The notes: generated by a model not told the origin, from the sequence alone. A stretch of 64,000 nt of DNA from Sulfurimonas sp. (GCF_028713515.1 NZ_JAQTOD010000001.1:186001-250000); one strand, 5' to 3'; shown: positions 33,148 to 47,242, counted from the first letter of the stretch. Numbers and translations are program-made.

Positions 33148-34368
33148 ATGTATAAAAAAATTACAAAATTGGCAGTAGTTCTTATGATAGCAAGTGGGTT
33201 TGTGTTTACGGAACTTGCAGTAGCTGGAAGTGAACCAGTTAAGGTTGTTGCTGCTCCAATAGAGCGCCCAGATTTTGAGCCAAATCTTAAAAGTGCCAAA
33301 AAGGTAGTTCATCCACCATATGAGATGGCAAAAGCAGATAAAGATTGCTCATTTTGTCATACAGAAAAAGATGGTAAAAGCGGTGCCTTAAAGATGGATA
33401 TGCCTGACCTTTGTAGTCAGTGCCATGAAGCAAAAGATAGCAAAAAATTTATACATGGTCCAGTTGGTGCAGGTGCTTGTACTGCTTGTCATGATCCACA
33501 CGAATCTAACAATATGAAGCTACTTCGCTTCTCAAATATAAATCAACTCTGCACATCTTGTCATGCAGACAAAGGTGTATTTTTGAAAACAACAAAGCAT
33601 ATTCATCCTCCAGTGCAAGATCAGTGCACAAACTGTCATGATCCTCATACAGAGAATTTTAAATTTCAACTTAAAGCGGATGGCAATAAGGATTTGTGTC
33701 TTATGTGCCATGTAGAGAAGAAAGAGCATTTGGCAAAAGTAACGCATAAACATGGTGCATTAGACCGACCTAAGAAATGTCTAGAGTGTCACAACCCTCA
33801 TGGAACAAACACTCCTAAAATGTTGGTTAAAGATACAGGCAAAGACCTATGTTTATCATGCCACAACAGCAAAATGACAACTGATGGTAGTAAGCTGACA
33901 AATATGGATCAGCATTTAAAAGACAATCCTGATCATCATGGACCTATTTTGTGGGGAGATTGTGCTGTGTGTCACAATCCTCATGGTTCAGATAATCTTA
34001 GAATGTTAAAAAAACCGTTTCCAGAAACATTCTATGCTAAGTTTGATGAAAAAAACTATATCTGTTTTGAGTGTCATGAGCCTGCAAAGATTCAAGATGA
34101 GATGACAACAACGGCAACAAATTTCCGTAATGGAGATAAAAATATGCACTTTATTCATGTTAATAAAGATAAAGGTCGTACTTGTAGAGCGTGTCATGAT
34201 TTTCATGGAACAAAAGAGTATCCACACCACTTGCGAACAAAAACAAGTTTTGGTGCGATTAATTTTCCAATTCGTTACATTGAAACTCCTACTGGAGGAT
34301 CGTGTGCTCCAGCGTGTCATGCACGACGCCATTACGATCGTAAAAAACCTATAGAAAATCTCAAGTAG
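33148..34368 (+). CDS. Multiheme cytochrome c, 11 CXXCH plus one CX3CH
   Basis: The 406-residue exported protein has a signal peptide (residues about 1-27, ..AVAGS) and eleven CXXCH sites: CSFCH, CSQCH, CTACH, CTSCH, CTNCH, CLMCH, CLECH, CLSCH, CAVCH, CFECH and CRACH. Several are followed by DPH/NPH, the 'doubled CXXCH' pattern. A twelfth candidate near the C-terminus has an extra residue (CAPACH). Extra His residues (THKHG, DHHGP) can give bis-His ligation. It is probably a periplasmic or outer-membrane electron conduit. The ATG at 33148 lies inside a second ATG context (see findings). It abuts the 8-heme gene with no gap. Confidence 0.93.
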   Translation: MYKKITKLAVVLMIASGFVFTELAVAGSEPVKVVAAPIERPDFEPNLKSAKKVVHPPYEMAKADKDCSFCHTEKDGKSGALKMDMPDLCSQCHEAKDSKKFIHGPVGAGACTACHDPHESNNMKLLRFSNINQLCTSCHADKGVFLKTTKHIHPPVQDQCTNCHDPHTENFKFQLKADGNKDLCLMCHVEKKEHLAKVTHKHGALDRPKKCLECHNPHGTNTPKMLVKDTGKDLCLSCHNSKMTTDGSKLTNMDQHLKDNPDHHGPILWGDCAVCHNPHGSDNLRMLKKPFPETFYAKFDEKNYICFECHEPAKIQDEMTTTATNFRNGDKNMHFIHVNKDKGRTCRACHDFHGTKEYPHHLRTKTSFGAINFPIRYIETPTGGSCAPACHARRHYDRKKPIENLK

Positions 34369-35400
34369 ATGAAACTCTTATCTACCCGTAAGAGGCTTGT
34401 GCCTCTTACATTTTTTTCACTTTTTTATTTAACCTCACTTACGCTTTCTGCTACTACACTTGAAATTATCCGTCCTCTTGCTAAAACTGTTATAGATGAG
34501 AGCGAAATAACTATTGTAGTTAAAGTTACAGATCCTCAGATTAGCAGAGTTGTCTTCACTGATGCGCAGGGAAATCAGTTTGAACGCGAGATAAAAGCAA
34601 ACAAACAGGTCTATTGTCAATCACTAAAAGCAAATCTTGGTGATAATCCTCTTAGCGTTGTTTCATACAAAGAGAAGGAAGTTAAAGAGAGTAAAACAAT
34701 TTCTGTCTATTTTCGCTCTGAGATTTCTCCTGGATTTCAAGATGAACCTTCGGGATTTAAAAAAAATCTTCTTCATAATGATAAAAATGAACAACTTTGT
34801 AAAACTTGCCATGTTATGAGCGACAAGCCGCGTAAAAAAGGTGAAATTGTTGAGAATCCAGAAGACTCCTCTTGCTATCAGTGCCATAAAAATTTAGTAT
34901 CACAAACTAAAGGACATGCTCCTGCTCTAAACTGGATGTGTACAGAGTGCCATACGGGAGAAAAGGGAGAGTATAGTAATGCAAAAGAAGATAAATCAAA
35001 ATATACAACTCCAGATCCAATTATGGATCGCTGTTTTGGCTGCCATGAAAATATCAAAAATGTTTGGTTTGCAAAAAAATCAGAACATGGACCTGTTCGT
35101 GATGGTAGATGTAATAGATGCCATAATCCCCATGGCTCAAATCAAGAGTTCTTTTTGCGCAAGTCGATTTGGGATCTGTGCACCACTTGTCACTCTGAAA
35201 AAGCAACTGGAGCTCATGTTATAAGTAGTTTTGTTAGAGGAAGCACTCATCCAACAAAAGGCGTGCAAGATCCTGCTCGTCCTGGAAGAGAGTTAGTTTG
35301 CTCAGGTTGTCATGATCCTCATGGGTCGGAGGGGATATTTTTGCTACGCTCAAAAGGTAAAACTGCTTTTAGTGTATGCGTTCGTTGTCACAAAAAATAA
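34369..35400 (+). CDS. Octaheme cytochrome c with N-terminal Ig-like domain
   Basis: The 343-residue protein begins with a signal (LTFFSLFYLTSLTLSA). A ~100-residue beta region (LEIIRPLAKTVIDESEITIVVKVTDPQISRVVF..) without haem sites looks like an Ig/cadherin-type fold. Eight CXXCH sites follow: CKTCH, CYQCH, CTECH, CFGCH, CNRCH, CTTCH, CSGCH and CVRCH, with NPHGS/DPHGS repeats. The beta domain could dock it to the outer membrane barrel or another cytochrome. It starts directly after the stop of the 11(+1)-heme gene, so the two are translationally linked. Confidence 0.92.
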   Translation: MKLLSTRKRLVPLTFFSLFYLTSLTLSATTLEIIRPLAKTVIDESEITIVVKVTDPQISRVVFTDAQGNQFEREIKANKQVYCQSLKANLGDNPLSVVSYKEKEVKESKTISVYFRSEISPGFQDEPSGFKKNLLHNDKNEQLCKTCHVMSDKPRKKGEIVENPEDSSCYQCHKNLVSQTKGHAPALNWMCTECHTGEKGEYSNAKEDKSKYTTPDPIMDRCFGCHENIKNVWFAKKSEHGPVRDGRCNRCHNPHGSNQEFFLRKSIWDLCTTCHSEKATGAHVISSFVRGSTHPTKGVQDPARPGRELVCSGCHDPHGSEGIFLLRSKGKTAFSVCVRCHKK

Positions 35401-35660: not shown

Positions 35661-36362
35661 ATGGTAACCTTTAAAAGGGTGGTGCAATCTATCGCAGTGA
35701 TAGTAGCATTGGGTTCGAGTGCTTTTGCAACATCAAATATTACGGCAACAAAACATAATCTTTCAGGTACTAGTACGGGAACAATTAAGTCTGATGCTGG
35801 GGATAATAATGACGAGATTTGTGTTTATTGTCATACTCCTCACGCCGCAAACACGGCTTTTGTTGGCGCACCATTATGGAATAAAGCAACTCCATCTGGT
35901 GTATTTACAATGTATGGTACTACTATTGGTGGAACAGCAACTGATGCAACGCCAAACAGCCCGTCTATGGCATGTTTAAGTTGTCACGATGGTGTTAGTG
36001 CAATTAACTCTATGGTTAATGCACCAGGCTCAGGTGGGTATGTTGCTCTTGGAGCTAATGTTAAGTTTGGTGCTACGGCTGCTGGGAGTGCGTTTGTAAT
36101 GCCTGCTGGAGTAACAGCAATCGGTACAGATTTGAGAAATGATCATCCAGTATCAATTACTTATGATCCAAGTAAAGCAGGGCTAAAAGCTACTGCAACA
36201 GCATTAACTGGTTGGGCTGGAGCAACGACTATCGCCAATCTTCTTAGAAACAGCAAAGTGGAGTGCGGTAGTTGTCATGATCCCCATGAAGCAACAAATG
36301 GAACATTCCTTCGTGTTGCAAATACAGGAAGTGCTTTATGTATAGGCTGTCACGCAAAATAA
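35661..36362 (+). CDS. OmcE-like tetraheme cytochrome c (candidate filament subunit)
   Basis: The 233-residue precursor has a signal peptide cleaved about after residue 23 (SSAFA). The mature part is rich in Gly, Ala, Ser and Thr and has four CXXCH sites (54-58, 105-109, 202-206, 227-231). Histidines are exactly eight: four in the motifs plus His32 (TKHN), His61 (TPH), His162 (NDHP) and His209 (DPH). All haems can thus be bis-His ligated with none spare. Size, haem number and the N-terminal His resemble OmcE of Geobacter, which polymerises into cytochrome filaments. A strong ribosome binding site (AAGGGAGG) and flanking promoter/terminator make it a separate, probably highly expressed unit. 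Confidence 0.88.
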   Translation: MVTFKRVVQSIAVIVALGSSAFATSNITATKHNLSGTSTGTIKSDAGDNNDEICVYCHTPHAANTAFVGAPLWNKATPSGVFTMYGTTIGGTATDATPNSPSMACLSCHDGVSAINSMVNAPGSGGYVALGANVKFGATAAGSAFVMPAGVTAIGTDLRNDHPVSITYDPSKAGLKATATALTGWAGATTIANLLRNSKVECGSCHDPHEATNGTFLRVANTGSALCIGCHAK

Positions 36363-36373
36363 TCTTCTTCATC

Positions 36374-36409
36374 TAGCAAATATCCACCTCTTCCGAGGTG
36401 GGTTTGCTA
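36374..36409 (+). terminator. Terminator of the tetraheme gene
   Basis: A strong nested hairpin: outer TAGCAAA / TTTGCTA and inner CCACCTC-TTCC-GAGGTGG. It begins 11 bases after the stop. Confidence 0.75.
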
Positions 36410-36508: not shown

Positions 36509-37576
36509 ATGATTAAGTTGGTGGTTTATAATTCAATGCTTTTTTTGGCATTGATTTTAGCAACTGGATGTGTTGCCCAAAAAGAGAAAATTACAGAGGG
36601 CTTTGTTGTTCCGGTGCTTCCGGAAGAACCAAGACTTTTTTATATTGCTACTTATACTGGAGAGCGTGATTTTGAGCAAGAGAGCACGCTTGATACTTTT
36701 ATAGGTGTTGAGGACGCTAAAGTGGCCAAGAGCATGGTGAAACCTTACGGCGTAGCTGCATATAAGGAAAAAATCTTTACAACTGATACCGCGCAAGGTG
36801 TTGTTTTTGTTATTGATCGAGCTACTAAAAAAGTATCTTTTTTGGGAGATAAGCCATCAGGTAAACTAGGGCTACCAGTAAGTATCGCTTTTGATGGTAA
36901 GGGACTTACTTATGTATCCGATGCGAAGTTAAAAAAAGTTTACGCATACGATGATAATGGTTCTGTTCAGAAAATTTTTGGTGTAAAGGATGAATTTACT
37001 CGGCCAACTGGAATTGCTATAAATAGAGATCTTGGATTACTTTATATAACTGATACACTCCAACATAATATTAAAGTTTATACTTTAGATGGAGTGATGG
37101 TTCAGACTATTGGAAAACGGGGAATAGAAGATGGTGAGTTCAACTATCCCACAAACCTTAGCATTGACCGCCGAAATGGGAATCTTATAGTTGGGGATAC
37201 ACAGAATTTTAGAATTCAGATTTTTGATAAAAATGGTAAATTTTTATCAAAGTTCGGAAAAGTTGGAGATAAGCCTGGCATGTTTGCTCGTCCAAAAGGC
37301 GTTGCAGTAGATAGTGAGGGTCATATTTATGCAGCAGATGCTGCTTTTAATAATGTTCAAATTTTTAATGATAAAGGAGAGCTTCTCCTCTATTTTGGCG
37401 GTGCCGGTACTACCCCTGGAACATTCCATCTACCGTCATCTCTTTATTGTGATGAAGAGGATAGGCTCTATACGACAGAAGGATTTAACTCAAAAGTTCA
37501 AGTCTTTCAATATATAAGTGAAGTTTGGAAGAAAAATCATCCAAATGAATATAAAAAACTTTTGGAGCCAAGATGA
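36509..37576 (+). CDS. NHL-repeat beta-propeller lipoprotein
   Basis: The 355-residue protein has a lipoprotein-type signal (ALILATGC, Cys 21; the lipobox has Ala at -3, so it is weak). About six NHL repeats follow, for example RPTGIAINRDLGLLYITDT, YPTNLSIDRRNGNLIVGDT and RPKGVAVDSEGHIYAADA, predicted to form a beta-propeller. It is 'protein-binding' rather than catalytic by appearance. The ribosome binding site is AAGGAGATAAAG. It overlaps the isomerase gene by 4 bases and has a paralogue at 40317-41345. Confidence 0.9.
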   Translation: MIKLVVYNSMLFLALILATGCVAQKEKITEGFVVPVLPEEPRLFYIATYTGERDFEQESTLDTFIGVEDAKVAKSMVKPYGVAAYKEKIFTTDTAQGVVFVIDRATKKVSFLGDKPSGKLGLPVSIAFDGKGLTYVSDAKLKKVYAYDDNGSVQKIFGVKDEFTRPTGIAINRDLGLLYITDTLQHNIKVYTLDGVMVQTIGKRGIEDGEFNYPTNLSIDRRNGNLIVGDTQNFRIQIFDKNGKFLSKFGKVGDKPGMFARPKGVAVDSEGHIYAADAAFNNVQIFNDKGELLLYFGGAGTTPGTFHLPSSLYCDEEDRLYTTEGFNSKVQVFQYISEVWKKNHPNEYKKLLEPR

Positions 37577-38517
37577 ATAGATTAGCTAAAAAAATTGTTG
37601 TTACTTTGTTGTTTGTGCTTACTTCTTCAGAGTTGTTTGCAGTAGTTGATAATGTAGTTGCAACAGTAAATGGTGTACCAATTTTAAAAAAACGAGTTGA
37701 TCGTGAAGTTACCGCTTTGATTCCTCAGGCGAGTTATCATGCTAATGTTGATGATGAAAAAATCAAAGAGCTAGAAAAAAAAGCAGTTGATAGTCTTATA
37801 AACAAAGAACTACTTTTTCAGTACGCTAAAAAACAGCAAATCTTAGTGTCTGATAAAGAACTTTCAGAGGCAGAAGAGGCGGTTGTTCGTGGATTTTCAG
37901 GGCGTAAAAATTTTCAACAAGCTCTAGCTCAGGCTAAAATACCACTAAGTGAGTTTCAAAATGAGTTAAAGACAGAGGAGTCTATCCGAAAGCTTTATGA
38001 GCAAAAAATTAAACTAACTTTTTCAGATGATGATCTTAAAGCCTATTATGAAAAAAATAAATATAAGTTTAAAGAGCCTGAAAAGATTGATGTTCAGATG
38101 ATTTATACTCGTAATAATCCAGAGGTAAAAAATGGAGGTCAGATTGCCAAAAAGCGAATAGATGAGGCAATGGCAAGTATTAAAAAAGGTGAAAATTTTG
38201 CAACTGTTGCATCTAAATACTCCAATGATATGACCCGTATTAAGGGCGGAAATTTGGGAATGATACATAAGGGCAGAATAGAAAATGCTATGGCAGAAAA
38301 AGTTGCTTTTGCTCTTAAAAAAGGAGAAACGAGCACTGTTGTTGAAACTGATGTGGGATGTTTTATTTTTCATCTTAACGGACGACAAGAAGCTGCTCAG
38401 CTTTCATTTGAAAAAGTCAAAGAGAGTCTTAGAGGTGAGCTAACTGCAAGTCGTGAGAAAGAGAAGATGGACTCTCTTTTGGAGTCTCTAAAAAAACAGG
38501 CAAAGATTAAAAGATAG
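37573..38517 (+). CDS. Periplasmic SurA/parvulin-type peptidyl-prolyl isomerase
   Basis: The 314-residue exported protein has a signal peptide (..SSELFA), a SurA-like helical chaperone region (VVATVNGVPILKKRVDREV..SLINKELLFQYAKKQ), then one parvulin domain (about 170-265: DVQMIYTR, AKKRIDEAMASIKKGENFATVASKYSND, GGNLGMIHKGR, FALKKGETSTVVETDVGCFIFHL) and a C-terminal helix. It probably folds or escorts an exported client, most likely the beta-barrel or cytochromes beside it. A PPIase (MccB) also accompanies the multiheme mcc operon of Wolinella. Confidence 0.92.
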   Translation: MNRLAKKIVVTLLFVLTSSELFAVVDNVVATVNGVPILKKRVDREVTALIPQASYHANVDDEKIKELEKKAVDSLINKELLFQYAKKQQILVSDKELSEAEEAVVRGFSGRKNFQQALAQAKIPLSEFQNELKTEESIRKLYEQKIKLTFSDDDLKAYYEKNKYKFKEPEKIDVQMIYTRNNPEVKNGGQIAKKRIDEAMASIKKGENFATVASKYSNDMTRIKGGNLGMIHKGRIENAMAEKVAFALKKGETSTVVETDVGCFIFHLNGRQEAAQLSFEKVKESLRGELTASREKEKMDSLLESLKKQAKIKR

Positions 38518-38536: not shown

Positions 38537-40294
38537 ATGAAAAAACATATGGTTGCTCGGGCTATTATCGCTTTAATCTCCTCTTTTACTATACTTCAAG
38601 CGGAGTCAAATGGATTTTATGGAAATTTAGAGTATGGATATACAGAAAATAGAGCTAGTGATGTAAACAATAAGTCATCACAAGAGGCTATGATTCAAAA
38701 CTATACTCTTGGAAAAACAGGATATGTTTATAATCCTAATTTGATGAGCTATTTGGTGCAAGGATCACTAATGGTGACAGATACCACAAATAAAACAAAT
38801 GATCAATCTTATGATTCTAAAAATAAGAGTATGAATTATCGTGTTAGTACTGATTTTATCCGCTCGACAAAATATCCTTTTTCACTTTATGGTGAAAAAA
38901 CATCAAATCCATATTCTAGCATTCAAGCTGGTTCATCTATGAGCTATAACCAAACAGATGATAGATATGGTGTTAATGGTTCAGTTGAACTTCCATATTT
39001 CAATCTTAGGTATAGTGGCGAGTCGTCTGATATGCAACGAGATGAGACTAATGCAGATGAGACTCGTAAAAACAAAAATTATACACTTTCTGTTGATAAA
39101 AGATTTAATGATGGCACATTCTCTGCTGTTTATAGTAATCGAACTCGTGACTATTTACGAGATGATCGCTATTTTCAATCCAAACAAGAGTGGAGTGATC
39201 AAGCACAAGATATAAGAATAAATGGTTCTTGGAATGTAGATAAAACACTCCGCATTGACTCATATCTTACCTATATGGATAGTAGTTATAGTGACATGAA
39301 AAATATGATGGGAAGTGTAAATATAAACTGGAATCCAACTGCCAAGTATATGGCAAGTGTTGGTGCAACAGCTAGTACAATATCTTCTGGCGGTAAGAGC
39401 AGTGATACCGTTATGCTTTTTGGAAACTCTTCATATATGGTAACTCCGGAGTTTACAACAACTCAAAATGTATCGCTTTATCGTGTTGCTGGTGATTATT
39501 CTGATATGACTATGGGAACGGCGATGTTGGGTGGGCATTATACTAAGGCCCTAGAGGATAATCTTGTGTTGACTGCTGGTCTTGATGTTATAGGTAAAGT
39601 TGAGAAAAACAAAGCTGTCTCTGATATAAATATAACAGCCCCAGATAGAAATAGTTACTCCTATACTGCCAGTTTTGGTGCCTCAAAAAGAGTTGAGGCA
39701 ATCAGCTCAAGCCTCTCTGGGAATTTATCATATTATAATTCTGAATCAACTCTCAATGATAGCACGAAGCGTATTTCGGCCAATATGATGCTCTCTACCA
39801 TGATAAGTAATAATTTTTATAATACACTATCGGGATATTATACCAGTGAAACTGGTAGGTACTATACAGATCCAACAACTGGCGCTATCCAGATGGATTT
39901 AGAGTCAGTTACTGTTGATAATAACTTAAGATATTGGTATGATGTTGGATATGATGGAAAGATATCTCTTGGTGGTGGAGTAACTTATAGTGAGTCACAG
40001 TATAACCAGCAGGAGAAACTAGTTCGTATTTTCCCTCATGCTGAGGGCAGTTTTACATATAAATTTTTTAGGACACTACTTTTTAACTCTAACCTTAGTG
40101 CATCACAAGACTCTGTAAGTGACTTAACAAATTACTCAGCTTATATAGGTTTAAATTATACATTAAGAAAAATTATAATGTCTTTTGGAACAAGATATTT
40201 TTATCAAACTAGTGGAGCCTCATCGGGCGCAAGTGGAGTCAATCAAGAAAGTACTCAAAGTTCAGTTTTTTTCAAGATATCTAGATCATTTTGA
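38537..40294 (+). CDS. Large outer-membrane beta-barrel (porin-like) protein
   Basis: The 585-residue protein has a signal peptide (to about LQAES) followed by many alternating polar/hydrophobic, Tyr-rich strands and ends in a terminal Phe (FFKISRSF), as outer-membrane barrels do. It contains no cysteine, so it is not itself a cytochrome and lacks the N-terminal CXXC of MtrB. The size would allow about 22-28 strands. In context it is the likely outer-membrane channel or sheath through which a cytochrome is exported or electrons cross. The ribosome binding site is weak. Confidence 0.85.
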   Translation: MKKHMVARAIIALISSFTILQAESNGFYGNLEYGYTENRASDVNNKSSQEAMIQNYTLGKTGYVYNPNLMSYLVQGSLMVTDTTNKTNDQSYDSKNKSMNYRVSTDFIRSTKYPFSLYGEKTSNPYSSIQAGSSMSYNQTDDRYGVNGSVELPYFNLRYSGESSDMQRDETNADETRKNKNYTLSVDKRFNDGTFSAVYSNRTRDYLRDDRYFQSKQEWSDQAQDIRINGSWNVDKTLRIDSYLTYMDSSYSDMKNMMGSVNINWNPTAKYMASVGATASTISSGGKSSDTVMLFGNSSYMVTPEFTTTQNVSLYRVAGDYSDMTMGTAMLGGHYTKALEDNLVLTAGLDVIGKVEKNKAVSDINITAPDRNSYSYTASFGASKRVEAISSSLSGNLSYYNSESTLNDSTKRISANMMLSTMISNNFYNTLSGYYTSETGRYYTDPTTGAIQMDLESVTVDNNLRYWYDVGYDGKISLGGGVTYSESQYNQQEKLVRIFPHAEGSFTYKFFRTLLFNSNLSASQDSVSDLTNYSAYIGLNYTLRKIIMSFGTRYFYQTSGASSGASGVNQESTQSSVFFKISRSF

Positions 40295-40316: not shown

Positions 40317-41345
40317 ATGACAAAAAAACTTTTTATACAGACGGTATTGGTTGGTCTCACAATTTCTTCGTTGTATGCAGTTGAGCAGGAGAGAATTGTC
40401 TGGCCATCCGCACCTGATCCAGCTAGATTTGAGTATGTAGGTAGCATAACAAAGAGTGAAGATTTAAATATAAAACGAGGATTTTGGGGAAAAATATGGG
40501 ATTTTTTAGCTGGTAATGAGCAAAAAATTTTAGCTGCCCCGTTTGGGATTCATGTTGATGAGAGTGGCAAGCTGTATGTTGCTGATGGGGGGAATCAAGC
40601 TCTATTTATATTTGACCCAATTGAAAATGAAATGAAGGTGATTGAGGGGTTTAATGATACAAGACTTGTCTCCCCTGTGGATGTTATTACTGACAACAAA
40701 GGAAATATTTATCTCTCTGATTCGGTGTTGGAGAGAGTTATTGTTTTTGATAAAAAAGGTAAGTTTTTATACACAATTGGAGGAGATAAGGTAAAAATTA
40801 CTCGTCCAACAGGTATGGCAATAAATAACAACTTAAACAGAATCTATATATCAGACACCGTTGCTGGGACTATTTTAGTCTTTTCACTTGAGGGAAAATT
40901 TATAACATCGATTGGTACAGAAGGCTCTGGAGATGGAGAGTTTAATCGCCCAACATATTTGGCTTTAGATAAAAATTACAATCTGTATGTTTCCGATTCG
41001 ATGAATCATCGTGTTGTGATTTTAGATAAAGATGGAAAGTTTATCCGTACATTTGGCAAGCTTGGCGATAATATCGGAAATTTTGGAAGTCCACGAGGTA
41101 TCGCTCTTGATGATGACCTCAATATTTATGTAGCTGATTCTCTTTTTCATGCTGTTCAAATCTTTAATCAAAAAGGAGAACTGTTGTTATCCTTAGGAAG
41201 TTTTGGAGCAGAAAAAGGCGAGTTTTCCTCGCCTAAAGATATCGCATTTGACACCAATGGTAGCCTATATGTAGCTGATTTTTATAATATGCGAGTTCAG
41301 AAGTTGAAAAAACTTCCAAATCCTGAAAATGTGGAGTTACCATGA
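40317..41345 (+). CDS. Second NHL-repeat beta-propeller protein, exported
   Basis: The protein is 342 residues from the ATG at 40317 (MTKKLFIQTVLVGLTISSLYAVEQ), which has AAAGGAGCGTCA before it. A longer frame upstream only overlaps the barrel gene. The signal peptide ends near SLYA with no lipobox Cys. NHL repeats include RPTGMAINNNLNRIYISDT, RPTYLALDKNYNLYVSDS, SPRGIALDDDLNIYVADS and SPKDIAFDTNGSLYVADF. It is paralogous to the 36509 protein but soluble. It overlaps the next gene by 4 bases (ATGA). Confidence 0.9.
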   Translation: MTKKLFIQTVLVGLTISSLYAVEQERIVWPSAPDPARFEYVGSITKSEDLNIKRGFWGKIWDFLAGNEQKILAAPFGIHVDESGKLYVADGGNQALFIFDPIENEMKVIEGFNDTRLVSPVDVITDNKGNIYLSDSVLERVIVFDKKGKFLYTIGGDKVKITRPTGMAINNNLNRIYISDTVAGTILVFSLEGKFITSIGTEGSGDGEFNRPTYLALDKNYNLYVSDSMNHRVVILDKDGKFIRTFGKLGDNIGNFGSPRGIALDDDLNIYVADSLFHAVQIFNQKGELLLSLGSFGAEKGEFSSPKDIAFDTNGSLYVADFYNMRVQKLKKLPNPENVELP

Positions 41346-43429
41346 AGAATATATTTAATATCACTCTACTTACTATTGCCATCATCTTACTATCTTTAGA
41401 CAATGCTAATGGAGGAGTTGTCAACACTAAGCACAATATGTCAACTGCGGGTCCTGGAACAATCAAAGCAACAAGCGAGCCGGAAGTTTGTGTTTTTTGC
41501 CATATTCCACATAGTGCTCAGACTGGAACACCACTTTGGAATCGTAGTATGCCAGCATCTTCATACACTATGTATAACAGTGACTACATGAGACGGATGA
41601 ACTATCCAACTCCTGCATCACTTGGAAATACAGTTGGAACACCAGGAACACTTTCTCGTCAATGCTTGAGCTGTCACGATGGCACTGTTGCGGCTGGATC
41701 TGTCTATTTGGTTCGTGGTACGCTACTCGGAGGTACTCAAATAGCTATGAGTGGTGTTAACCCTGATGGAACAATGCTCTCATCGGCAGCTGGCTATGTT
41801 GGGACTGATTTAAGAGGTCACCATCCGGTTGGAATTGAATATAACCACACCGTGACTAAAAACTTTGGCAGTGGAACTAGAGGAATAGAGCTTTTAGTAA
41901 CGCCAGGAGCCGCGATTAAACTATACACTTATAGTGGTAAGCAGTATGTAGAGTGTTCCTCTTGCCATGATCCTCATACAGAAACTAAAAAGTTTCTTCG
42001 TTACTCAGCTGGAGGAAGTCATGGGGCTAATGTATATGGTACTTGTACTTCATGTCATGATAAAGCAAACTGGGCAACTGGGGCTCATGCTACCGTAACA
42101 AATAGTTATACTGATGCAACCGTTAATGCAGCGTATGAGACAAGCACTGTTTCTTCACTTGGGTGTGTAAACTGTCATAAACCACACAATGGAGAAGGGA
42201 AGCCATATCTGTTGCGCAAAGTTGAAGAAAATACCTGTTTTCAAGGAGCAGGTAGTGGCACAACTTCAACTGTCCCGTGTCATGGAACTGGTGGAGCAAA
42301 AGATATTCAGACATCACTTCAAAGAATGTACTCGCACCCTACAGATTTGATTTCTGGACAACACAGTAATCTTGATGTTTTATATGGCACTGGCGTGGTG
42401 AGTGATGGTGGAGGAGCTATAACTTGGAATACAAATAAACATGCTGAGTGTACAGATTGCCATAACCCACATCAGGCAAAAGCTGGAAGTCATATTGATC
42501 CTCCGGATGGGGTAAACACTATGTACCCATCAGCACCAACAAATCTTATATCCAAATCAGGTCCACTAAGAGGGGCGATTGGAGTTGAACCTACATGGCC
42601 AGCTACCGGATGGACTCAACCAACTTCGTTTACTACGCTAGAGAGTGCAACCTATGAGTATCAGGTCTGCTTAAAATGCCACTCTCAATGGGCGCTTGGA
42701 AGTTCTGCTACGCCAGTATCTTCTCAGACCATAACAAAAACAGGAGAGCCAGCAACTGATCAGGCATGGGAGTTTAATCCGAAGAATAAATCGGCTCATC
42801 CGATAGTTATGTCTCATAATGCGATGAAAACTTATGGCGGAAATGCAGCAAAAAATCCTGCAGCTGAGGGACGGTATGCAGACTCTTTGACAAGTGCATA
42901 TTTAAAAACTCCATGGTCAAATAATCCTGGAAACAACACAATGTACTGCTCCGACTGTCATGGAGCTGATGAGCAGACATCCGACCCACGAGGCCCACAC
43001 GGTTCGAGTTACAAGTATATGCTCAAGGGACGCGGTAACTATTGGCCATATAAACCAAACGGTCAATTATGGGGTATTGATGATACAACAGTGGATAATC
43101 CTGATCTTTTCTGCCAAAATTGTCATAGAACTGAAGCAGTTGGAGTTCATGTATTTAAATCTGATCGTGGTAGATTTAATAATATGCTTTGTGTTAACTG
43201 TCATTCAGGCATTCCACATGGTTCAAAAATATCTCGTCTGATGGCATATGCTGCTATGCCACATCCCTATAATTTTAATGGCAATGCAAAAATGAAAGGA
43301 TTTCGTGCTTTAGGGGCAGCTAATTATGTAACAGCAAATAGAGGAAAAGGAAACCATTGGACCAATGATACGGGCACATGTGGTTGTCATGGATCAGCAG
43401 TAGGAGGAGCTTATGATGTCTATCCATAA
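41342..43429 (+). CDS. Large multiheme cytochrome c with tetraheme module and atypical haem motifs
   Basis: The 695-residue exported cytochrome has ten CXXCH sites (CVFCH, CLSCH, CSSCH, CTSCH, CVNCH, CTDCH, CLKCH, CSDCH, CQNCH, CVNCH) plus a long-spaced CX13CH (CFQG...VPCH) and a C-terminal CXCH (CGCH). The first ~235 residues repeat the motif order of the tetraheme protein at 35661: TKHN, C-x2-CH-x-PH, PLWN, YTMY, CLSCHDG, GTDLR-x-HHPV, VECSSCHDPH, FLR, CTSCH. It is likely surface or outer-membrane located, and may anchor or cap a tetraheme filament. The last bases overlap the next gene. Confidence 0.92.
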   Translation: MKNIFNITLLTIAIILLSLDNANGGVVNTKHNMSTAGPGTIKATSEPEVCVFCHIPHSAQTGTPLWNRSMPASSYTMYNSDYMRRMNYPTPASLGNTVGTPGTLSRQCLSCHDGTVAAGSVYLVRGTLLGGTQIAMSGVNPDGTMLSSAAGYVGTDLRGHHPVGIEYNHTVTKNFGSGTRGIELLVTPGAAIKLYTYSGKQYVECSSCHDPHTETKKFLRYSAGGSHGANVYGTCTSCHDKANWATGAHATVTNSYTDATVNAAYETSTVSSLGCVNCHKPHNGEGKPYLLRKVEENTCFQGAGSGTTSTVPCHGTGGAKDIQTSLQRMYSHPTDLISGQHSNLDVLYGTGVVSDGGGAITWNTNKHAECTDCHNPHQAKAGSHIDPPDGVNTMYPSAPTNLISKSGPLRGAIGVEPTWPATGWTQPTSFTTLESATYEYQVCLKCHSQWALGSSATPVSSQTITKTGEPATDQAWEFNPKNKSAHPIVMSHNAMKTYGGNAAKNPAAEGRYADSLTSAYLKTPWSNNPGNNTMYCSDCHGADEQTSDPRGPHGSSYKYMLKGRGNYWPYKPNGQLWGIDDTTVDNPDLFCQNCHRTEAVGVHVFKSDRGRFNNMLCVNCHSGIPHGSKISRLMAYAAMPHPYNFNGNAKMKGFRALGAANYVTANRGKGNHWTNDTGTCGCHGSAVGGAYDVYP

Positions 43430-43907
43430 TCGCATGAAGTGTTATTTAGTAGTAGTTGCTCTTGTGTTCTTCTCTCCAGCAGTTATGCTTGGGGCAGAAA
43501 AAGAGGATGGAATAAAAGAGACGGTTGTTCGGTATAACCAAGCGCTAATAGAATCAGCAAGAACAGGAAAAACTGCAACACTGGAACCCTTAGCAACTAA
43601 AAAAATTGTTACTAAAACATATGCGTGGATTCACTCATGGCAAGATAGTAATCTCTATATGCGCGCCAAACTAAATAAACTTAAATTTGAAGAGATTCGA
43701 GTTGATAATAATGCAAGTATGGTTAGAACATATGAGGAGTGGAGCTATGATTATTATGATGCAGAAAATAAAAAAGATGCAATGCCGACAACACAGGTTG
43801 TATATCAGATGAAATACACATTGTACCCTCATCAAAAGCGATGGATTATTAATGATGTTAAAGTTATTAACGAAAAAAGTACACCTCTGGAAAAAGCCAA
43901 AAAATAA
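43413..43907 (+). CDS. Exported NTF2-like (IMS-domain-like) protein
   Basis: The 164-residue protein has a signal peptide (LVVVALVFFSPAVMLGAE), then an alpha+beta domain: an N-terminal helix with VRYNQALIESARTGKTATLEPLAT and strands ending KYTLYPHQKRWIINDVKV. This resembles NTF2/ARC6-IMS-like folds. It contains no haem motif. Two adjacent ATGs (43413, 43416) follow GGAGGAGC, and the gene overlaps the large cytochrome by 17 bases. It is an accessory protein of the locus with unknown role. Confidence 0.75.
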   Translation: MMSIHNRMKCYLVVVALVFFSPAVMLGAEKEDGIKETVVRYNQALIESARTGKTATLEPLATKKIVTKTYAWIHSWQDSNLYMRAKLNKLKFEEIRVDNNASMVRTYEEWSYDYYDAENKKDAMPTTQVVYQMKYTLYPHQKRWIINDVKVINEKSTPLEKAKK

Positions 43908-44026: not shown

Positions 44027-47000
44027 ATGGCGAATCAACTTAAAAAAATAGGATCATTTTTGGCATCAATGCCGTTTATGGTGGCACTGCTACTAATATT
44101 TGGTATTGCAAGCGGTGTTGCAACATTTATAGAGAATGACCATGGAACAGAGACTTCATGGGCTCTCGTTTATGGTGCCAAATGGTTTGAACTTCTTCAA
44201 ATTATGCTTGGAGTTGGAATCTTTGCAAATATCATCCGCTTTCGTATGTTTACACTTAAAAAACTACCAACTTTTATTTTTCATGTGGCATTTTTAATAA
44301 TCTTAATTGGCTCTGGTATAACTCGCTATTTTGGATACGAAGGAGTTATGCATATTCGTGAAGGAGACACAGAAAACCGTATGCTCTCAAGCGAGGCTTT
44401 TTTGCAGATTGATGCAACTCACGGCACACAAAAATATCATGCTGAAAAAGCAGTTTATGCAGCAGGGCTAAAAGATGGCGATTTGAATGAACATCTGGAT
44501 GTTGGTGGCAAGGCGTTAACAGTTAAGTTTAAGCAGTTTATCAAAAAAGCAGCTAAAACAGCAGTTGAAGATCCTGCTGGAAAAGCAGTTGTAATGTTTG
44601 TTATTCCGGCTCCAAGTGGACCTGAGAAGTTCTTTTTATCTAAAGGCGAGTTTGTTGATGTTGGACCAATAGCTATCTATTTTGACAAAGCTCCAGATGT
44701 TGAGCGTTTCTACATCAGCATATCTGAAAAAGATGGTAAGTTCTCATTTGTCTCTAACAGCAATGTTGAGTGGCTAAGAATGGAAGATAAACTCTCTGGA
44801 AGTGTGATTGCTGGAAATGAAGGAGAATTTGAAGCGCGCCGTTTATATACTGTGAATGGTATCCAAATAGCAACCAAATCAGTTCTCTCTCATGGTGCAG
44901 TCAAGGTTATACCTGAAGATGAGTATCGCGCTTCGCTCAAGATGGATATGAATACAAACGGTGAAAATCTCTCTGCTCTTATTGTTGAGGCTGAACTAGA
45001 TGGACAAAAGCGTGAAGTTGCTCTAATGGGGCAAGGAAAACGCTTTAAAGGATTTACAGAGAATTTTCGTTTAGGAGATGTTGATGTCTCTCTTGAGTGG
45101 GGAGCTAAGCAGATAGAGTTACCATTTTCTGTTAAGCTTGATGATTTTGTAATGGACAAATATCCAGGATCAATGAGCCCATCATCATACGAGAGTCATG
45201 TTCACTTGATTGATGAAAAAGCTAAAATAAACGATAGTTTTAGGATTTTTATGAATAACCCTATGGAGCATGGTGGTTTTAAATTTTTTCAATCATCTTT
45301 TGATCAAGATGAGATGGGAACGGTTCTCTCTGTAAACCGCGATCCAGGAAAAATACCAACTTATATTGGATATATATTGTTAGCGCTAGGACTGTTCCTT
45401 AATTTTTTCAATCCTAATGGTAGATTTGGTAAATTGGCTCGTACTCGTTATGATAGGTCAGCACCATCTGTGATGATTGGGTTAGTGTTTTTGGCGGGGC
45501 TATTTATGGCTCAACCAGCATTTGCATACGCTGAGTATCAAAAAGAACAAACAGCAGATCTCTCTACTGCCTTAGAGACAGTAAAAAAAGTAGATTATGC
45601 GTCCGCCGAAGAGTTTGGTACGATTTTAATGCAAGATATGGGTGGACGGATTAAGCCGATAGACTCTATTGCTATTGACATAGTAAATAAACTCTCTGGT
45701 CAAACAACTATTATGGGATTGTCTGCAAATCAGATAATCCTTGGTATGGCATCTAAACCAGTACTTTGGCAAAAAATTGCAATGATTAAAGTTAAACACT
45801 CAAAAATCAAAGCAATGCTTGGAATTGAAGATGAGAAAAAATATATTGCATTTAATGATGTTTTAGATCCAGCTGGTGTGTATAAGCTTGGAGATGCTGT
45901 TCAGGCATCCATTACAAAACGACCTGCTGAGCGAGATGAGTTTGATAAAGAGCTGATTAAACTAGATGAGAAGTTAAATATTGCATATAGTGTATATGCT
46001 GGTGATTTTATGCGAATTTTCCCTCTTGTCGGAGATAAGGCAAATGCGTGGCTTAGTCCAAGTGATGCACTTAAAGCACTTTCTCCAGAGGATTCTCAAA
46101 AAATTAGACAAATTCTCCAACTAAACTATACTGGAATTAATGAAGGGATAGAGAAGGGGAATTGGAAAACTTTTAGTGATGCAACTAAGATGATAATCGG
46201 CTTTCAGAAATTAAATGGAGCTACAATTTATCCTTCTGAATTACGAGTTAATGCAGAGTTACTCTACAATAAAGCATCTATTTTTGAGAGATTGATTCCT
46301 CTATATCTTTTTGCAGGTCTAACTCTTTTAATACTTATTTTTGTTCGTCTTTTCAAACCTGCTCTAAATTTAGAGAAAGTGCAAAAGGTTGTTCTTGGAG
46401 TTTTAATAATTGGGTTTATTGCTCACACAGCAAATCTAGGTTTACGGTGGTATGTTTCAGGGCATGCGCCGTGGAGTGATGGATATGAGTCAATGATTTA
46501 TATTGCGTGGACAATTATTTTAGCGGGAATTATGTTTGCAAGACAATCAGAATTTGCAATTGCATCAACAGGAATTCTATCTGGAGTTGCTCTTTTTGTT
46601 GCTCATTTAACATGGTTAGACCCACAAATAACAAATCTTGTTCCGGTACTTAAATCATACTGGCTATCAATCCATGTGTCTGTTATTACTGCTAGTTACG
46701 GCTTTTTGGGACTAAGCGCACTGCTTGGGCTTATATCGCTTGTGCTTTTCATTATGATTGACCGCGTTAAAAATGAAAATACAAAACGACAAACCATTAT
46801 CAGTATCCGAGAGGCAACAAGAATCAGTGAAATGGCAATGATTATTGGGCTCTCGCTTGTTACTCTTGGGAATTTCATTGGTGGAGTATGGGCAAATGAG
46901 TCATGGGGTCGTTATTGGGGATGGGATCCAAAAGAGACATGGGCATTGGTTACGATTCTTGTTTATGCTACTGTAGTTCACTTGCGTTTTATACCGAAGT

Positions 47001-47242
47001 TGAATTCAGTCTTTAACTTTACGGTGGCATCTGTTGTTGCTTATAGTTCGGTAATTATGACTTATTTTGGGGTTAATTATTATCTATCTGGATTACACTC
47101 TTATGCGGCTGGTGATCCAGTGCCTATGCCGACTTGGGTTTATTATGCGGTGGCTACAGTGCTGTTGTTGATTCTTTTAGCCTCTAGAAATCGTAAAGCA
47201 GTTTCGGGAAGTCTGAAAAATCCAAACACAGCAGAAGGGTAG
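44027..47242 (+). CDS. ccsBA: Fused cytochrome c haem ligase CcsBA (ResB-ResC)
   Basis: The protein is 1071 residues from the ATG at 44027 (MANQLKKIGSFLASM), which follows AAAAGGGAATTC. The N-terminal ResB/CcsB half has transmembrane segments near the start, a large periplasmic domain (about 130-440) and a helix at PTYIGYILLALGLFLNFF. A central signal-like helix (MIGLVFLAGLFMAQPAFA) follows. The C-terminal CcsA half carries HTANLGLRW, the WWD haem-handling loop (ESWGRYWGWDPKETWALV) and conserved His. CcsBA exports haem and ligates it to CXXCH cysteines. Its position directly after the cytochromes suggests it serves them. Confidence 0.95.
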   Translation: MANQLKKIGSFLASMPFMVALLLIFGIASGVATFIENDHGTETSWALVYGAKWFELLQIMLGVGIFANIIRFRMFTLKKLPTFIFHVAFLIILIGSGITRYFGYEGVMHIREGDTENRMLSSEAFLQIDATHGTQKYHAEKAVYAAGLKDGDLNEHLDVGGKALTVKFKQFIKKAAKTAVEDPAGKAVVMFVIPAPSGPEKFFLSKGEFVDVGPIAIYFDKAPDVERFYISISEKDGKFSFVSNSNVEWLRMEDKLSGSVIAGNEGEFEARRLYTVNGIQIATKSVLSHGAVKVIPEDEYRASLKMDMNTNGENLSALIVEAELDGQKREVALMGQGKRFKGFTENFRLGDVDVSLEWGAKQIELPFSVKLDDFVMDKYPGSMSPSSYESHVHLIDEKAKINDSFRIFMNNPMEHGGFKFFQSSFDQDEMGTVLSVNRDPGKIPTYIGYILLALGLFLNFFNPNGRFGKLARTRYDRSAPSVMIGLVFLAGLFMAQPAFAYAEYQKEQTADLSTALETVKKVDYASAEEFGTILMQDMGGRIKPIDSIAIDIVNKLSGQTTIMGLSANQIILGMASKPVLWQKIAMIKVKHSKIKAMLGIEDEKKYIAFNDVLDPAGVYKLGDAVQASITKRPAERDEFDKELIKLDEKLNIAYSVYAGDFMRIFPLVGDKANAWLSPSDALKALSPEDSQKIRQILQLNYTGINEGIEKGNWKTFSDATKMIIGFQKLNGATIYPSELRVNAELLYNKASIFERLIPLYLFAGLTLLILIFVRLFKPALNLEKVQKVVLGVLIIGFIAHTANLGLRWYVSGHAPWSDGYESMIYIAWTIILAGIMFARQSEFAIASTGILSGVALFVAHLTWLDPQITNLVPVLKSYWLSIHVSVITASYGFLGLSALLGLISLVLFIMIDRVKNENTKRQTIISIREATRISEMAMIIGLSLVTLGNFIGGVWANESWGRYWGWDPKETWALVTILVYATVVHLRFIPKLNSVFNFTVASVVAYSSVIMTYFGVNYYLSGLHSYAAGDPVPMPTWVYYAVATVLLLILLASRNRKAVSGSLKNPNTAEG

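Follow-up and report, generated by a model that had tools for sequence, protein, structure and literature searches.

Gene organization of the locus

The window, a stretch of 64,000 nucleotides of Sulfurimonas sp. DNA that was analyzed as a whole, harbors an operon encoding a large multiheme cytochrome, L (41342..43429), and an OmcE-type tetraheme protein, T (35661..36362), which is a putative nanowire subunit. All features described below are on the same, plus (+) strand. The T polypeptide of 233 aa has four CXXCH motifs and exactly eight His residues; the L polypeptide of 695 aa has ten CXXCH motifs, a CX13CH site and a CXnCH site in its tail. Two further c-type cytochromes are encoded upstream of T. 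The first is an undecaheme protein with doubled CXXCH motifs (33148..34368), which is distantly DmsE-like with a match below the NCBIfam cut-off and is probably a periplasmic electron carrier. It is followed by an octaheme protein with a non-heme domain at the N-terminus (34369..35400). T is separated from the other operon genes downstream by a strong hairpin (36374..36409, z −4.4).

The genes between this hairpin and L encode an NHL propeller (NHL1, 36509..37576, Pfam NHL 1.5e-21), a SurA-like periplasmic peptidyl-prolyl isomerase (37573..38517, Pfam Rotamase_3 2e-17 and SurA_N_3 1.5e-14) that is probably a secretion or assembly chaperone, a probable outer-membrane beta-barrel (BAR, 38537..40294), and a second NHL propeller (NHL2, 40317..41345), the 3' end of which overlaps the start of L. 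Downstream of L are genes for a small secreted NTF2-like protein (43413..43907), assigned from a weak Pfam match below the cut-off, and for a fused ResB/CcsB-type cytochrome c maturation protein (44027..47242). The position of the NTF2-like gene downstream of L is conserved in the loci of relatives. A protease gene was not found in the operon.

The barrel nature of the 38537..40294 product is suggested by its signal peptide and C-terminal Phe. The corresponding family, 26 proteins from putative nanowire operons, gave no matches in Pfam or the PDB. An MtrB/PioB Pfam match was absent in all 26 proteins at E 0.1, so the family was not classified as an MtrAB-type barrel.

Domain architecture of the large cytochrome

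L is composed of an OmcE-type tetraheme module (residues 26-241, 41417..42064), supported by BLASTP, PDB entry 7tfs, hhalign and superposition of an AF2 model, and a C-terminal part (residues 242-695, 42065..43426). An initial sequence-only reading had placed the module at 41342-42060; the location was correct, and the end is nearer 42064. The same reading had claimed about 460 additional residues with six CXXCH motifs and two atypical sites, in good agreement with the approximately 454 residues that follow residue 241 and the CXXCH motifs found there at positions 275, 370, 443, 536, 591, and 617. The first atypical heme site, C299-x13-C313-H314 (42236..42283), has C299 in 64 of 67 L sequences and C313 and H314 in all 67. 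The version of this site in relatives is CX12-13CH and nearly invariant. The second is the tail site C680-x-C682-H683 (43379..43390), which belongs to a CXnCH type with n ranging from 1 to 10 among relatives; the C and H of the tail site are kept although the spacing varies. With about 454 residues and eight heme sites past heme 4, L as a whole falls outside the definition of a tetraheme subunit and is a variant architecture built on the OmcE-type module. L has an ordinary signal peptide without a lipobox; thus no sequence feature fixes it to the outer membrane, which counts against a role of L as the end unit of a filament.

Homology between T and the L module

A BLASTP comparison of T with L gave 34% identity with an E value of 1e-30 over L residues 5-241, signal peptide included. 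After masking of all CXXCH(xPH) motifs, a match of 37% identity with an E value of 9e-12 was still obtained over 161 residues. In a second control the heme motifs were fixed and the intervening residues shuffled; the real T-L score was 10.9 sd above 1000 shuffles, and the scores of the other multiheme proteins of the operon and of the rest of L were near those of their own shuffles. The masking and the heme-fixed shuffles rule out chance similarity caused by heme motifs. Profile comparison by hhalign of 73 T sequences with 67 L sequences gave a probability of 100 and an E value of 1.2e-55 over 222 columns.

The landmarks listed in the sequence-only reading occur in the same order in both proteins: TKHN, CV(Y/F)CHxPH, PLWN, TMY, and CLSCHDG, followed by GTDLR with HPV, VECxSCHDPH, FLR, and a last CXXCH. 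The masked BLASTP, the hhalign result and the comparison of the L model with OmcE exclude that the similarity is confined to the CXXCH neighborhoods. Pairwise alignment, profile match and superposition of the model on OmcE all support that the tetraheme fold is genuinely present a second time in L.

The homology implied by the term second copy is therefore real, but a local duplication is not, as the copy is ancient. When 142 modules were placed in a tree, those labeled T and those labeled L separated almost cleanly, with 2 changes as compared to a mean of 47 for shuffled labels. Furthermore, the T of the same locus was the closest T to an L in just 1 of 41 cases. Together these observations rule out a recent local duplication and indicate that the fusion or duplication of the module is an old event and that the module has been retained ever since.

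Relationship to OmcE and other cytochromes of known structure

Full-length T matched the OmcE structure of Geobacter sulfurreducens (PDB 7tfs) with an E value of 1.6e-27 (profile 1.1e-48) and PDB entry 9yuq with 1.4e-25 (profile 3.5e-43), so by sequence the OmcE family gains a new member in T. It is by homology to 7tfs and 9yuq only that T may be able to polymerize, a condition raised in the sequence-only reading. L residues 13-239 matched 7tfs with an E value of 3.3e-25, and the L profile matched 9yuq over positions 3-238 (E 2.9e-35). OmcE has the same four CXXCH motifs, four distal His, and a TKH sequence near the mature N-terminus as T and L. OmcE is known as a nanowire from cryo-EM, whereas T is known here from its sequence. 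L is three times longer than OmcE, with about 454 extra residues and eight more heme sites. Entry 9yuq is a putative multiheme cytochrome c of 218 residues, present as 16 chains, and is without the C-terminal extension of L. T, L, OmcE and 9yuq also have conserved residues in common, namely K, L and S near the N-terminal His, PLWN, a Tyr, HP, FL, and the final Lys. In the neighborhood of omcE in Geobacter (GSU0615-0617), a GSU0616 mutant reduced acceptors at a level at least that of the wild type.

The AF2 model of L, a single chain without hemes, had a mean pLDDT of 78 and a pTM of 0.81. A Foldseek search with this model returned OmcE as the sole match (E 7.4e-6). Residues 30-240 superimposed on OmcE with a VIA Z score of 7.3 and an rmsd of 4.4 Å over 171 residues, which is a loose fit. 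The stretch from heme 4 to heme 5 had a pLDDT of about 90 and was without a linker-like gap, whereas residues ~21-60 were of low confidence. The latter is suggestive only, but could reflect a tail that needs a partner. Residues 103-635 of the model also gave a weak match with MtrA (6r2q_A, Z 7.6), a score in a range that may be generic. The AF2 model of T was poor (pLDDT 68, no Foldseek match) and was left out of the superposition.

Conservation of heme ligands

Besides the His residues of the heme motifs, T has exactly four His of the distal type (32, 61, 162, and 209), a number sufficient for bis-His ligation of all four hemes. In the T family His 162 and His 209 are present in 73 of 73 sequences, His 32 in 72 and His 61 in 66. 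In the L module, the distal His (31, 57, 161, and 212) and the heme 2 site show no variation among the 67 L sequences. In these sequences His 249, 282, 332, 341, 367, 377, 486, and 553 are likewise invariant, and His 626 is found in 66 of 66. As the 12 heme sites of the CH type in most L proteins stand against 13 further His that are invariant or nearly so, one His appears to be spare; this would fit a donated ligand but is suggestive only. Conservation of the C-terminal part was almost that of the module (mean top-residue frequency 0.57 vs 0.62).

In OmcE, heme 2 is ligated by a His of the neighboring subunit (PMC12203936), and His ligation between subunits is also described in PMC9473688. 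The equivalent heme site in L is the CLSCH motif at 41663..41677. Since all four distal His are invariant in L, it retains whichever His crosses the subunit interface in OmcE. By analogy with OmcS, the crossing ligand may be the N-terminal distal-type His of the module. In L this is H31 of TKHN (codon 41432..41434, His in 67/67), which we propose, as a guess, as a candidate inter-subunit ligand.

Distribution of L and its association with T

Relatives of L were encoded in 393 stretches among 85,000 species genomes scanned, and the best 80 matches (79 loci) were taken. One of the scan patterns was located in the module, so L homologues without the module are under-sampled. Among these best 80 of 393, L was found in Campylobacterota, Aquificota, Nitrospirota, Nitrospinota, Bacteroidota/Ignavibacteriota and Gammaproteobacteria. 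L is thus a conserved family of at least six phyla. In close relatives from this genus, L and T are arranged as in the window; two of these genomes are MAGs named Sulfurimonas, in line with a place of the window in that group of Campylobacterota.

Around L the recurrent gene order in the best 80 of 393 was T-NHL1-PPIase-barrel-NHL2-L-(NTF2-like)-(ccsBA). For 44 loci of this set the DNA extended 7 kb or more upstream; in these, T was located upstream of L in 38 and on either side in 40. In 58 of 63 relatives from the same set, the gene immediately preceding L encodes an NHL protein. In loci in which BLAST did not detect the barrel, an ORF of 520-620 aa usually occupied its place. In two loci from unclassified bacteria (L084 and L085) T and L adjoin an NHL gene and no barrel-like ORF was recognized between T and L.

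Of the 38 assemblies with L, 37 had a free-standing T; the L gene of the exception was on a contig of 3.2 kb. Five of 298 near-complete Campylobacterota genomes carried L, each with T nearby on the same contig. Another of the 298 genomes, G245, has T and no detected L, which counts against L as an end unit. So do extra L genes that are distant from T and the barrel. Solitary L genes located away from T and the barrel (L025, L030, L027, L037, L073) occur in assemblies that have a full operon or T elsewhere. Three of the solitary genes share a neighborhood, two with a 638-aa protein, and with a divergent isomerase.

A hairpin separates T from the downstream genes

In 17 of 20 relatives the gap following T folds with z < −2 (median −3.5), as compared to a median z of about −0.7 for control junctions of the operon and about 0 for coding controls. 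In several relatives this gap also has a U-run resembling an intrinsic terminator. The gap after T has a median length of 116 bp, whereas the genes from NHL1 to L abut with median gaps of 3-11 bp. The hairpin at 36374-36409 is probably an attenuator or a 3'-end stabilizer of the T message. Such a structure, present after T and atypical of the other junctions, suggests that T is produced in excess over the downstream L.

Proposed role of L in an OmcE-type nanowire

According to PMC12307469, it is still unsettled how cytochrome nanowires begin and terminate and by what means they are anchored and connected to the cell. The invariant ligands of the interface type, the co-occurrence of T and L in operons and genomes, the hairpin pointing to an excess of T, and the gene for a barrel-like protein make it plausible that L acts as a base, cap or adaptor of a T polymer, as the sequence-only reading had proposed. 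We tentatively consider L to be specialized as the terminal unit of a cytochrome nanowire of the OmcE type. The repeating subunit would be T, with one heme of each subunit ligated by a His of its neighbor as in OmcE. Because L keeps the full tetraheme module with its four distal His, it would be able to exchange a ligand with one T subunit, leaving the heme chain unbroken, and its C-terminal part would extend the chain via the eight further heme sites. This C-terminal part would also fill the position of the next T, so that L would hold T at one end only. Located at the cell-proximal end, L would join the filament to the barrel encoded between T and L, and the barrel would link L onward to the upstream-encoded multiheme cytochromes of the periplasm. 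Export and assembly may be assisted by the NHL propellers and the SurA-like isomerase, and the hairpin after T would cause T to be made in excess over L.

For the polarity of L, a base is most likely and preferred over a tip on the basis of the barrel-like protein in the operon, the periplasmic-type multiheme proteins upstream (33148, 34369, and in many relatives), and the conservation of the C-terminal part of L, which is close to that of the module. The weak resemblance of the L model to MtrA is compatible with a base but may be generic. The gene cluster resembles that of MtrCAB (6r2q) in combining a multiheme wire with an outer-membrane barrel; it differs in that the barrel found here has no Pfam or PDB match and in that L contains a nanowire module, which MtrA does not. 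A porin together with extracellular and periplasmic multiheme cytochromes is likewise encoded in the PCC3 clusters of iron oxidizers (PMC5566968). Identity with PCC3 was set aside since those clusters have very large repetitive cytochromes, along with an inner-membrane protein, and an OmcE-type subunit is not described for them.

The evidence for joining of L and T would apply equally if L were the distal tip, ending the filament outside the cell with its C-terminal part exchanging electrons with minerals, sulfur, electrodes or cells. The variable tail site and the poorly conserved tail could suit an exposed terminal heme, and PMC9473688 mentions that proteins possibly present at the tips of such filaments had been left out of consideration. 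We nevertheless regard a tip position as unlikely, since the barrel and the multiheme proteins of periplasmic type that are often present in the operon point to the cell side, and since the C-terminal part of L is nearly as conserved as the module, unlike the fast-changing outer-surface cytochromes of Geobacter (PMC12977616).

It is also doubtful that the module is just an internal electron-transfer domain, with L being the outer-surface cytochrome of a porin-cytochrome complex that never touches T filaments. The ancient split between T and L, with a module that does not track the local T (closest in 1/41), agrees with such a role, as do the extra L genes far from T and the location of the barrel and NHL genes next to L. 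It leaves to be accounted for that T shares the operon with L in 38 of 44 loci (best 80 of 393) and that 37 of 38 assemblies with L also have T, and the four invariant distal ligands would need an explanation without a partner, although internal ligation would preserve them as well.

Less probable still is a function of L in nucleation or assembly, in which it would serve as a template for the first T subunits before being released, or as a minor polymer or filament branch point itself. Such a function would suit the tight packing of L with genes of the assembly type, those for the SurA-like isomerase and NHL proteins, but a 12-heme protein would be costly as a chaperone and the conserved heme chain argues for conduction. 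Finally, there is the precedent of the long form of OmcZ, a larger precursor with a polymerizing heme module on its N-terminal side, comparable to the putative one of L, that is cut by OzpA (PMC12307469); OmcZ has another fold and no inter-subunit ligation. It is very improbable that L is a precursor from which a protease frees the module, as the operon here is without a protease gene, a free module is already supplied by the separate T gene, and the stretch between hemes 4 and 5 is confidently folded.

If L is indeed the terminal unit at the cell side, it could be the first recognized dedicated nanowire base, a heme-to-heme joint from an outer-membrane conduit to an OmcE-type filament, occurring in six or more phyla and with a subunit excess set by a hairpin. 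This fuller proposal is more tentative than the terminal-unit role itself. A description of L was not found in the openly readable literature, a scope that excluded the OmcE paper and the 2023 nanowire survey, and we claim no priority. With L the question of anchoring gains a named gene, a conserved fusion of a nanowire subunit and a heme chain that is encoded beside a barrel and the subunit in many phyla. By these findings, sulfur-cycling Campylobacterota, Aquificota, and Nitrospirota may also possess OmcE-type wires.

Other OmcE-type paralogues

In Hydrogenimonas, Persephonella, and others, a second, smaller tetraheme paralogue adjoins NHL1 and precedes the isomerase gene (L029 1623-2288, L032 5327-6013, L039 4026-4670, L059 5520-6194, L065 5562-6248, and L071 4030-4674). 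These smaller proteins form a deep separate clade, and in several of them Asn replaces the His after the first heme. They are candidates for a minor subunit. OmcE-type proteins with a fifth CXXCH motif, possibly pentaheme wires, are encoded near L operons, mostly in Nitrospirota (L035 12233, L042 1174, L045 19467 and 20321, L052 16231, L064 13244, and L097 13193).
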